This document shows, piece after piece, positions 28,163-35,409 of a stretch of 40,360 bases of DNA. The notes beneath the pieces were generated by a model. That model was not told where the DNA came from and made no database searches. It saw only the letters and a program-made list of their open reading frames with translations. Positions within the stretch are counted from its first letter, which is position 1, and every line of letters starts with the position of its first letter. The position numbers and the translations under genes were made by a program. The DNA is taken from contig CAKUHX010000001.1 in assembly GCA_934659475.1 (NCBI GenBank), positions 1 to 40,360 of the forward strand. The letters are read 5' to 3'. The stretch is from an uncultured Oscillospiraceae bacterium (GTDB lineage: Bacteria; Bacillota; Clostridia; Oscillospirales; Oscillospiraceae).

Positions 28163-28596
28163 AGGGTTTGACCTCCAAAGATTTGATACCCGCCCAAACC
28201 CACCCTTTTAGATGAGTGGGGGCAAGGCCCCCACACCCCCATAGAGCGGCCTTTGGCCGCCTGAAAGCCTCCCTCGTCAGAGGGAGCCAAAGCCGCGCGG
28301 CTTGTGACAATGTAGGGCCCGATGCCCTCATCGGGCCGCCGTTAGGATCTATGGGGCCGGATGAGGGGCTGATTTGCGGCGCGCCGGGTCGTCGCGCCCT
28401 ACACACACGGTGGATAGAACATTCCATAGGGCAAGGGCTTTGCCCTTGCCGATAGGACAGCGGCCCCTACAAGAAACAACAAACATTACACGCCGTAGGG
28501 GCGGATATCATCCGCCCGTCGTATAGGTTTGAGAAACGTAACATTAGGGCCTGTAGGGGTGGATGTCCTCATCCGCCCGCGATTTTATGCCGCACA
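28163..28596. repeat. repeat nest between relA and dtd
   Basis: No gene is supported. The stretch holds: GTGGGGG/CCCCCAC (28216-28234); GCGGCC-TTT-GGCCGC (28246-28260); a MITE-arm-like AAGCCTCCCTCGTC...GGGAGCC (28265-28291); the TGTAGGGCCCGATG...CATCGGGC repeat (28311-28337); its inverted relative ending GCGCCCTACA (to 28412); GGGCAAGGGCTTTGCCCTTGCC (28429-28450); CGTAGGGGCGGAT...ATCCGCCCG (28493-28518); and TGTAGGGGTGGAT...ATCCGCCCG (28552-28579). They appear to be several insertions stacked in one spot. Confidence 0.7.
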
Positions 28597-32991: not shown

Positions 32992-33022
32992 GATGAAATG
33001 GGGGCCGGAGGGGGCGAAAGTC

Positions 33023-33051
33023 TTGCGGGGATGGGGGAAAAGTGGTAAAAT
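33023..33051 (+). promoter_or_regulatory. sigma-A promoter of mnmG
   Basis: TTGCGG (33023-33028) and TAAAAT (33046-33051) are separated by 17 bases. The leader to the true mnmG start is now about 440 bases because of two inserted repeats. Confidence 0.7.
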
Positions 33052-33094
33052 ACAAAATTATTGTGGAGCGCGGGAGCGTGTCTGCACCGGCTCT

Positions 33095-33229
33095 AAGCCT
33101 CCCTCTGACGAGGGAGGTGGCAAAACCGAAGGTTTTGACGGAGGGAGAGACAAAAGGTGCAGCTCCCGGAGAAATTCTCTCCCTCAGTCAGCCTGACGGC
33201 TGACAGCTCCCTCGTCAGAGGGAGCCATC
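33095..33229. repeat. MITE-like element in the mnmG leader
   Basis: Ends AAGCCTCCCTCTGACG (left) and CGTCAGAGGGAGCCAT (right) are inverted repeats. Each arm holds its own hairpins: CCTCCCTC/GAGGGAGG and AAAACC-GAAGG-TTTT at the left, TCAGCC-TGAC-GGCTGA at the right. Inner GGGAGAGA and TCTCTCCC also pair. No coding capacity. Confidence 0.7.
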
Positions 33230-33297
33230 TGACCGTGGGAGATGCGCGGAAACGCACCTGACGATATGTATGAGCTGTGATTTGGAGCAGAAAACAT

Positions 33298-33352
33298 TAT
33301 GAGAGAATACGACGCAGGACGATTTGATATTGCGGTCATTGGGGCCGGCCAC
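33298..33352 (+). repeat. duplicate of the mnmG 5' end (copy 1)
   Basis: These 55 bases, from one base before ATG through codon 18, are identical to 33498-33552. The frame from this ATG (33299) leaves the mnmG sequence at 33353 and stops at TAA 33391, giving a 30-residue dead-end peptide. GGAG lies near 33284, so this copy keeps the original leader. Confidence 0.9.
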
Positions 33353-33391
33353 CCAGGGCCCCGGCGAAGCCGGGACGCGCTTTGCGCGTAA
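33299..33391 (+). pseudogene. truncated mnmG start fragment
   Basis: An ATG with the original mnmG upstream sequence gives 18 MnmG residues, including the beginning of the FAD motif (VIGAGH), then 12 unrelated Arg/Pro-rich residues and TAA. It is a remnant of duplication, perhaps translated but not functional. Confidence 0.75.
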
Positions 33392-33497
33392 AATTGATTT
33401 GAAAAATCAATTTGCGGAGGGACGATCCATTCGTCCCGAGCATTTTGAAAATCCCCGGGTACCCGCGCGGCCGGAGAGAAGAGGTTTGGGATCTGAG
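33353..33497. repeat. hairpin-chain element between the duplicated mnmG starts
   Basis: This 145-base insert is a series of palindromes: CCCGGCGAAGCCGGG, GCGC-TTT-GCGC, AAATTGATTT-GAA-AAATCAATTT, GGGACGA-TCCAT-TCGTCCC and CCCGGGTACCCG-like GC blocks. It has no gene, but its end supplies the present upstream region of mnmG (GGAGAGAAGAGG at 33473-33484). Confidence 0.75.
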
Positions 33498-33498
33498 T

Positions 33499-35409
33499 AT
33501 GAGAGAATACGACGCAGGACGATTTGATATTGCGGTCATTGGGGCCGGCCACGCGGGCATCGAGGCGGCCCTCGCCGCCGCCCGTCTGGGTCTGCGCACC
33601 CTGTGCTTCACTGTAAATCTGGACGCGGTGGGCAACATGCCCTGCAACCCCGCCATCGGCGGCACGGGGAAGGGCCATCTGGTGCGGGAGCTGGACGCCC
33701 TTGGGGGCGAGATGGGCCGGGCCGCTGACAGAGCCTGCATCCAGTACCGGATGCTCAACCGGGGCAAGGGTCCGGCGGTGTGGTCCCTGCGGGCCCAGGC
33801 CGACCGGCGGGAGTATCAGAAGGTGATGAAGCATACCCTGGAGCGGCAGGAGGACCTGTGGGTGAAGCAGGCGGAGATCGTGGCCGTGCGCACGGAGCAC
33901 GGGGCGGTGTCCGCCGTGGTCACCCACACTGGGGCGGTGTACCGCGTGAAGGCCGCCGTGATCGCCACGGGCACCTATCTTGGGGGGCGCACCATCATCG
34001 GCGACGTGGTGCGCCAGTCCGGGCCGGACGGCCTGATGGCCGCCCTGCCCCTGACCCGGTGCCTGGTGGATCTGGGGCTGTCCATCCGCCGGTTCAAGAC
34101 AGGTACGCCCCCCCGGGTGAACGCCCGCAGCGTAGACTTTTCCAAAATGGAGATCCAGCGGGGGGAGGAGGACGGCCTGTGCTTTTCCCTTCACACCCGG
34201 ACTCCGCCGGAGAACCGGGCGGTGTGCTACCTGACCTATACCAACGAGGCCACCCACCGTATCATCCGGGACAACCTCAGCCGCTCCCCCCTGTACGACG
34301 GCACCATCCAGGGGGTGGGCCCCCGGTACTGCCCGTCTATCGAGACCAAGGTGGAGCGCTTTCCGGAAAAGGAGCGCCACCAGTTGTTCATCGAGCCCAT
34401 GGGCTTGGATACAGAGGAGCTGTACATCCAGGGCTTCTCCTCCTCCCTGCCCGAGGAGGTGCAGGTGGAGATGCTGCACACCATCCCCGGCCTGGAGCAT
34501 GCGGAGATGACCCGGGCGGCCTATGCCATCGAGTACGACTGCGTGGACCCCACCCAGCTGCTGCCCACCCTGGAGACTAAGGCAATTTCCGGCCTGTACG
34601 GAGCGGGGCAGTTCAACGGCTCCTCCGGCTACGAGGAGGCGGCGGTGCAGGGCTTTGTGGCCGGGGTGAACGCCGCCCGGAAGATCAGGGGCCAGTCGCC
34701 CTTTATTCTTCGCCGGGACCAGGGGTATATCGGTGTGCTCATCGACGACCTGGTGACCAAGGGCACCAACGAGCCCTACCGCATGATGACCAGCCGGACG
34801 GAGTATCGCCTGCTCCACCGGCAGGACAACGCCGACCGGCGGCTGGTGCCCATCGGGTATGAGCTGGGCCTGGTCAGCCGGGAGGAATATGAGGGGGTAC
34901 AGGCCAAATACGCCGCTGTGGAGCGGGAGCAGAAGCGCTTGGAACACGCCGGCGCGGCCCCGGGGGCGGCGCTGTCCGCCCTGCTGGCCGCCCATGGGCA
35001 GCCGGAGGCCCCCAACGGGGTGCGGCTGGCCGACCTGCTGCGCCGCCCGGGGGTGACCTATGAGGAGTTGGCCCCTCTGGATCCGGAGCGGCCGGAGCTG
35101 ACGGCGGAGCAGCGCCAGGGGGTGGAGATCGCCGTGAAGTATGACGGCTACATCCAGCGCCAGCTGCGGCAGGTGGAGGAGATGCGCCGTCTGGAGGACT
35201 ATCCTATGCCCGGAGGCATAGACTACCACGCCATCACCGGCCTGCGGCTGGAGGCCCGGCAGAAGCTGGCCCAGATCCGCCCCCTGAACCTGGGCCAGGC
35301 CGGGCGGGTGTCCGGCGTGTCCCCGGCGGATGTGGCCGTTCTGATGGTATATTTGAAAATGGATCCGTCCCGCCAAAAAGCGGAGAAACACAGAGGAGAA
35401 GACCGATGA
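33499..35409 (+). CDS. mnmG: tRNA uridine-5-carboxymethylaminomethyl modification protein MnmG
   Basis: This 636-residue FAD protein, the partner of MnmE, modifies U34 of tRNA. FAD motif [14 protein letters not shown] is at about 10-23, [19 protein letters not shown] and IQYRMLN(R)[14 protein letters not shown] follow, with [10 protein letters not shown] and the C-terminal [17 protein letters not shown] tRNA-binding helices. Length is normal, so the gene is intact. Start ATG 33499 is now preceded by inserted sequence; its best ribosome binding site (AAGAGG, 33479-33484) is 14 bases away, longer than ideal, and an in-frame TTG at 33412 after a stop at 33400 could add 29 residues. The stop overlaps the next gene's ATG (ATGA). 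Confidence 0.95.

Follow-up and report, generated by a model that had tools for sequence, protein, structure and literature searches.

The start of mnmG in the stretch of DNA analyzed here (40,360 nucleotides, hereafter the window) is duplicated around a chain of hairpins, and this arrangement appears to belong to a new family of hairpin elements that carry the ends of genes. The explanation we favor, with moderate confidence, is that the insert is a non-coding, horizontally exchanged, homing-like element, dedicated to its site, that supplies the gene with an end and displaces the native one. Besides its chain of hairpins, a unit (mostly 200-240 bp) holds a copy of a gene end and a short stretch antisense to its target, and each lineage of units is dedicated to a single gene end. 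Insertion would occur inside the coding region, roughly 10 to 35 codons away from the gene's end, such that the gene would read into the copy borne by the unit and remain functional, with the native end pushed to the far side, and units would move between strains and species through homing-like recombination. The gene end may be imported together with the unit (one clear case, below), the antisense segment may guide insertion, and the work would be done either by an enzyme supplied in trans or by host recombination.

A first-pass annotation of the locus had described a 55-bp duplication of mnmG around a hairpin insert, and its coordinates, its offset of 200 and the hairpin chain were all reproduced. 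Positions 33298-33352 (R1) and 33498-33552 (R2) are identical over exactly 55 bases, and extension by one base fails on both sides. This pair accounts for all 31 of the repeated 25-mers in the window, where no other direct repeat of 25 bases or more was found, and for 36 of the 38 repeated 20-mers. The locus is composed of the following features, all on the forward (+) strand:

33298..33352 (+): R1, the upstream copy of the mnmG 5' end, with an ATG at 33299 and 18 codons, in a dead-end frame
33353..33552 (+): the inserted unit, in which the hairpin chain is followed by the antisense segment, a new leader and R2
33360..33374 (+): left terminal hairpin, CCCGGC-GAA-GCCGGG, from folding; a similar hairpin is seen by eye in most alignment rows
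33369..33448 (+): conserved core, a covariance model match of 61.8 bits, the window being among the 30 training rows of the model
33391..33413 (+): hairpin 3 of the core, with perfect arms of 10 bp; its sequence is unlike that of the relatives, with pairing retained
33419..33437 (+): hairpin 4 of the core (GGGACGA/TCGTCCC), inside two more pairs
33462..33474 (+): X', a guide-like antisense copy of the insertion point, complementary to 33545-33557 at 12 of 13 positions
33475..33497 (+): leader of the intact mnmG, within the unit, as read from the sequence; AGAGG is the likely Shine-Dalgarno motif
33498..33552 (+): R2, a second mnmG 5' end, the same as R1 in sequence and continuous with the intact gene
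33499..35409 (+): intact mnmG (NCBIfam TIGR00136, 818 bits versus a cut-off of 525)
33545..33557 (+): X, the target segment across the right junction 33552|33553 and inverted-repeat partner of X'

The insertion point lies between mnmG codons 18 and 19 (GGCCAC|GCGGGC), identically in all seven of the occupied mnmG loci described below. The frame of R1 contains the 18 mnmG codons and then runs on to a stop at 33391, for a total of 30 aa, which bears out the original view that the upstream copy is dead, and we read R1 as the displaced native start of mnmG. The proposal of a different leader ahead of the intact gene also held, as the identity of the copies begins one base upstream of the ATG and the leaders differ beyond that point. 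We consider it somewhat probable that the unit at 33353-33552 provides mnmG with its new leader and its start. Plausibly, the absence of differences between the copies marks a recent event, with the limit that gene conversion between them would have the same effect. The hairpin chain (33353-33497, 145 bases) has a minimum free energy of -58.4 kcal/mol (z = -2.5, with 4 of 200 shuffles equally good), and its core at 33369..33448 was the sole covariance model match within the window at E <= 0.01. X' sits directly 3' of the chain, and X spans the end of R2 and the rest of mnmG. The first 90 residues of MnmG are 80-94% identical to those of 52 relatives, and a neighboring protein in the window, which we take to be of metallo-beta-lactamase type, has best relatives that are 56% identical and places the window near the Lawsonibacter/Pseudoflavonifractor/Flavonifractor group of the Oscillospiraceae. 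Two minor repeats were also observed in the window: a palindromic repeat of the CTCCCTCTGACGAGGGAG type at 33080-33230, between a recJ-like gene and mnmG, and, among the remaining 20-mer repeats listed, a 20-mer at 33207 that recurs at 28269.

The first-pass annotation had named the absence of the insert from elsewhere in related genomes as evidence against its reading; the search for it instead revealed a repeat family, further copies of which also have duplicated flanks. With the G002 insert as the query, matches were obtained in 8 of 11 related genomes (E <= 0.01), ranging from 2 to at least 40 per genome, the latter in G011, and the more diverged insert of the window itself gave matches in 4 of the 11. 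Among 30 aligned cores, 11 of the 18 predicted pairs show changes on both sides that keep the pair, two of these with compensatory changes in at least one third of the rows. The consensus fold of the whole unit contained no pairs beyond hairpins 3 and 4, which in our opinion is because the terminal hairpins, whose sequence varies from unit to unit, are too variable for alignment. When 150 sampled Oscillospiraceae genomes were searched with a covariance model of the core, 56 gave a match at E <= 1e-4. In a class-wide sample the core was detected in 5 of 391 genomes at E <= 1e-6 (11 candidates scored in each genome, under strict filters), and the element therefore looks restricted to the Oscillospiraceae and near kin. 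The copies analyzed were drawn from the best-scoring matches and not at random (the best 30 to 40 candidates per genome in the first-look search), and the sampled genomes are mostly drafts. Draft contigs were seen to end inside or beside elements (L018, L027 and other contigs of G011), because of which the copy numbers are probably underestimates.

A long direct repeat (score of at least 20 within 300 bases on each side of the core) flanks 89 of 139 distinct cores. In a control of 584 mismatched flank pairs, the 95th percentile of the score was 13, the 99th 45.5 and the maximum 252; 14 pairs scored 20 or more, several of which represent the same gene or neighboring copies. The 50 cores without a repeat at this threshold include some at terminators or contig ends. 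The second copy begins mostly 33-44 bases past the core, and in the 14 loci that were measured the copies, of 31-86 bp, are separated by a spacer of 105-221 bases. The repeats read as ends of genes, mostly 3' ends in sense to the core, but also some 5' ends in antisense; mnmG has its 5' end in sense orientation to the core. The genes beside the core are unrelated to one another and lie on either strand relative to it. When nine genes that end in R1 were compared with NCBIfam, six scored above the cut-off (UvrB, IF-2, EF-P, UvrA, dGTPase and phosphoglycerate mutase), a HinT-like HIT protein and a deoxyribonuclease IV-like protein fell below it, and L060 had no match. In five of these cases (UvrB, UvrA, IF-2, EF-P and phosphoglycerate mutase) the R1-terminated frame extends to the end of the profile or close to it. 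The names that we use for the remaining housekeeping target genes are presumptive. Units also occur in tandem, at spacings of about 190-245 bases and once of 339. At L051, L058, L065, L071, L074, L079 and L134 the cores lie between similar transcription terminators, sometimes in tandem; some of these terminator-flanked cores are, by eye, beside apparent tRNA genes, and the duplicated "gene end" is then seemingly the terminator. At the 3' end of infB in G002 (L248) no second copy of the gene end was found, and a 13-base tandem duplication was seen exactly at the insertion point used elsewhere, which is possibly a scar or a draft error.

The duplicated gene ends differ from one another in a manner that indicates selection on both. 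The sense frame was chosen by third-position GC, independently of the second copy, and 56 of 139 rows could be used, the other 83 being left out for want of a usable junction, open frame, GC3 or identity. Across these 56 loci, R1 and R2 differ by 187 synonymous and 37 non-synonymous codons, with 36, 29 and 191 substitutions at the first, second and third codon positions, respectively. One thousand neutral simulations with the same number of substitutions gave a mean of 25% synonymous changes and at most 32%, versus the 83% observed. One row, L086:1501, was kept although its frame is probably wrong, and it counts against the selection reading. Because the differences are so overwhelmingly synonymous, both copies have served as working gene ends, and the spare copy has therefore not been dead since insertion: either it was working until a recent displacement by import, or both ends are in use.

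Most units carry an antisense copy of their own target. In 59 of 86 units, a segment located before the core is the perfect complement, over at least 9 and up to 18 bases, of sequence around the start of the second copy, and 54 of the 59 span the junction, typically reaching from 6 bases before the start of the second copy to 7 or 8 bases after it. Such complements were rare in the controls, with 6 of 428 when the junction of another unit was substituted and 0 of 428 when the window of comparison was shifted upstream. A version of the test that admitted wobble pairs gave 48 of 67 units at a score of 9 or more, against a 95th percentile of 9.3 for the control. Among the 27 of 86 units with no antisense segment of at least 9 nt before the core, five are mnmG loci, and in all seven occupied mnmG sites an antisense segment (12 to 14 matching positions) was instead identified on the other side of the core, crossing the point where the unit ends. 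As the segment spans the insertion point on whichever side of the core it lies, it is in both arrangements complementary to the uninterrupted gene at that point. This complementarity, a feature of the sequence, suggests that the antisense segment may act as a guide, either as RNA or as single-stranded DNA. An unusual insertion mechanism, one of the alternatives raised for mnmG at the outset, is supported.

The mnmG site has been occupied repeatedly. A search of 12 related genomes with the start of mnmG identified the duplication and hairpin chain, at the same codon, in G001, G002 and G011. A further 40 mnmG starts were taken from a search of 150 genomes (the best 39 matches not yet sampled, plus G070), which brought the occupied sites to 7 of 53: the window, G001, G002, G011, G130, G051 and G068. 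The other 46, which are the empty sites that the first-pass annotation had advised looking for in relatives, are empty in the sense that the model had no match at E <= 0.05 in the ~500 bases upstream of the gene, and one of them has a weak match farther upstream. Since the architecture recurs at the same codon in six further genomes, an assembly artefact at mnmG is unlikely. In a tree of the next 240 bases of mnmG the occupied loci are scattered, with seven changes, three of them forced by well-supported branches in a bootstrap that is not yet settled. Close relatives of occupied genomes have empty sites (G140 for G001, G004 and G010 for G011, and G034 for G130), and in G001, G011 and G130 the leader ahead of R1 matches that of the empty relative, whereas the leader ahead of R2 differs. 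In two of the freshest mnmG cases, L197 and L200, few if any differences separate the copies, and the repeat takes in part of the leader; together with the window, these look like local duplication and not import, which counts against the import reading. A 3' end that by eye reads like that of mnmG is also a site, with tandem units, in L179 (G086:C6:666150-667300); the mnmG 5' site of the same genome, G086, is empty.

Elements are dedicated to sites. The 88 units examined fall into 49 sites when the mnmG loci are counted as one, and at 19 of these sites more than one genome has a unit. Because diverged orthologues may be split, 49 is an upper estimate; the number is 53 when the mnmG loci are counted apart. 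The mean likeness of elements was 0.80 for the same site across genomes (72 pairs), versus 0.70 for different sites within one genome (258 pairs) and 0.69 for different sites between genomes (3498 pairs). Similarly, for 40 of 58 units the closest element lay at the corresponding site of a different genome, for 3 at a different site of its own genome and for 15 in neither place. Cores are sometimes closer to each other than their host genes are; for infB in G140 and G099, for instance, the core likeness was 0.93 versus 84% for the gene.

The divergence of the end copies between genes with near-identical bodies points to exchange. In the HIT-domain gene, G004 and G010 differ at 1 of 120 positions in the body but at 8 of 75 in R1 and 5 of 75 in R2, and for another gene G011 and G010 differ at 1 of 120, 2 of 75 and 6 of 75, respectively. 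Other pairs show no such end divergence, for example L150/L304 (G011 versus G004), with 0 of 120 differences in the body and 1 of 75 and 3 of 75 in the ends. The clear case for the direction of import is infB of G011, in which the tail of R1 is, by eye, like the native end of G008, and R2 agrees with G010 and G004, the empty relatives closest to it (4 versus 12 differences of 86), with R2 again the closer in the tail (0 versus 8 of 16). Across ten occupied infB and HIT loci, the copy closer to the nearest empty relative was R2 in six, R1 in two and tied in two, a comparison that is suggestive, the direction of import being clear in G011 infB only. For this comparison L248, L250 and L272 were left out of the empty set (because of an indel, a partial second copy or occupation), and for the tandem HIT loci of G011 and G070 the first downstream copy alone was used.

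Several other explanations were weighed against these results. It is possible, but in our judgment unlikely, that the unit is often removed, by precise DNA excision or by antisense-guided RNA splicing, and that both ends are used in one lineage. Such removal would explain why selection acts on both copies and why the antisense segment pairs with the very sequence that removal restores, on both flanks of the joint; group I introns have an internal guide that pairs in this way. However, at 85 positions the core is short by the standards of group I and group II introns, no Rfam intron family was matched in the window or in nine loci with other copies, the terminator-flanked copies would hardly gain from splicing, and the diverged ends of near-identical genes indicate exchange. 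Plain transposition in the manner of a MITE, its one peculiarity being the exceptional length of the target duplication, seems to us slightly less likely again. The local, species-specific duplication in the window, L197 and L200 and the numerous copies per genome (at least 40 matches in G011) are what it would predict, but neutral decay of the spare copy was rejected, the elements cluster by site rather than by genome, and the antisense copy of the target is left unexplained. The same two observations, selection and the antisense segment, oppose a plain target duplication as the full account of mnmG.

We hold it improbable that the core is a conserved regulatory hairpin of untranslated regions in combination with a tandem duplication homogenised by gene conversion, despite the covariation of the hairpins and the frequent similarity of copies within a genome. 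Close relatives with nearly the same gene have empty sites, the core adjoins unrelated genes and lies on either strand relative to them, and the mnmG tree is the opposite of what unbroken vertical presence would produce. Replication slippage or an assembly artefact confined to mnmG would account for the perfect identity of the two copies there, but its probability is negligible, as it is refuted by the same arrangement in six more mnmG genomes and at 48 other sites. Simple slippage, one of the mechanisms originally suggested, is further contradicted by the purifying selection on both copies and by the antisense target copy in most units. As whole explanations, slippage, plain MITE insertion and pure gene conversion were rejected on the grounds of selection, the antisense segment, the grouping by site and the empty sites.

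The element was also compared with known systems and with the enzymes that serve them. IS200/IS605 elements recognise their cleavage site through short end sequences, guides of ~4 nt located 5' of a hairpin, that base-pair with it; the hairpins and the pairing of a guide with the target are shared with our element, whereas the guide length differs (9-18 here). No association with the Y1 transposase (PF01797) was found in the 150 genomes, 59 of which encode it (22 of 56 with the element versus 37 of 94 without, p = 1), and it was absent from 8 of 14 genomes picked as element-rich, these being mostly drafts in which absence is weak evidence. Reverse transcriptase (PF00078) likewise showed no association, being present in 20 of 56 genomes with the element versus 27 of 94 without (p = 0.47) and absent from 5 of the 14 element-rich genomes, and both enzymes were missing in 4 of these 14 drafts. 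OMEGA/HEARO guide RNAs, which function with IscB, IsrB or TnpB, are mobile and have a guide beside a hairpin scaffold. The latter arrangement is like that of the hairpin element, but there was no HEARO among the sub-threshold Rfam matches, and of 14 element-bearing genomes, 2 had a TnpB-type domain above the cut-off and 4 had one at E <= 0.001. These enzyme searches thus yielded no candidate for moving the element. Integrative elements restore a gene end upon insertion and produce att duplications. The element resembles them in the duplication of a gene end at both junctions, and differs in having no integrase and no genes, and in that one core family serves about 49 sites. With Rfam 15 there were no matches in the window at the gathering score; under relaxed settings there were two weak matches in 33000-33800 of the window, both outside the core, and seven sub-threshold matches (E <= 1) in nine loci with other copies, none of which covers the core.

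We know of no definition of MITEs, REPs or REPINs that includes selected, long duplications of gene ends, dedication to a site or an antisense copy of the target. A MITE has a short target duplication, in contrast to the 31-86 bp at the 14 loci measured here. What these repeats and other bacterial palindromic repeats share with the element is that they are short, non-coding, palindromic, multicopy and located at the edges of genes (PMC3116915, PMC2817692, PMC8266576). A close parallel in the arrangement of the gene is with mobile endonuclease ORFs of fungal mitochondria, which bring a foreign C-terminus and displace the native end, examples being atp6 of Allomyces macrogynus and atp6, atp9, cox2 and nad3 of Glomus sp. 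229456 (PMC3630166). The same endonuclease-ORF logic appears in PMC4019555, which cites Allomyces work of 1994. The fungal order of a gene with an inserted C-terminal end, a mobile element and a displaced native end is the one that we propose for the bacterial units, and for the fungal elements horizontal transfer has been proposed, with all of the differences between one atp6 end and that of a relative being synonymous (PMC3630166). The fungal elements encode a LAGLIDADG or GIY-YIG endonuclease, whereas the hairpin element has no ORF of its own; the frames that cross the 145-base spacer of the window all run through from outside. Unlike the fungal elements, the hairpin element also uses 5' ends, and in most units there is a segment antisense to the target. 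A search of open-licence PMC papers found no earlier account of an element of this kind.

In a bolder reading, which we advance tentatively and rate at somewhat less than even, the unit may be a natural, guide-programmed "home-and-rescue" element. The hairpin chain would be a guide scaffold whose antisense segment leads an enzyme to the end of one needed gene, the synonymously different gene end that the unit brings would spare the host, and an imprecise deletion could hardly lose the element. Housekeeping gene ends that are occupied and yet functional by way of a second end recall the trick on which engineered rescue drives are designed. That an element with no ORF has a copy antisense to its target suggests a guided insertion or removal system in common gut bacteria. 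For annotation, a short pseudo-end or false start at such a site is not necessarily the product of misassembly, and trees are possibly chimeric close to the ends of genes.

In a blastn comparison with phage and plasmid records, the insert had no match at E <= 0.01. By exact pattern, a copy of the element was found in a contig of a viral collection, IMGVR_UViG_3300010163_000993 (L316 8641-8677). There the element lies directly before what we take to be a portal-like gene, presumably among phage-like genes, and it is possible that this phage contig represents a vehicle for the element.
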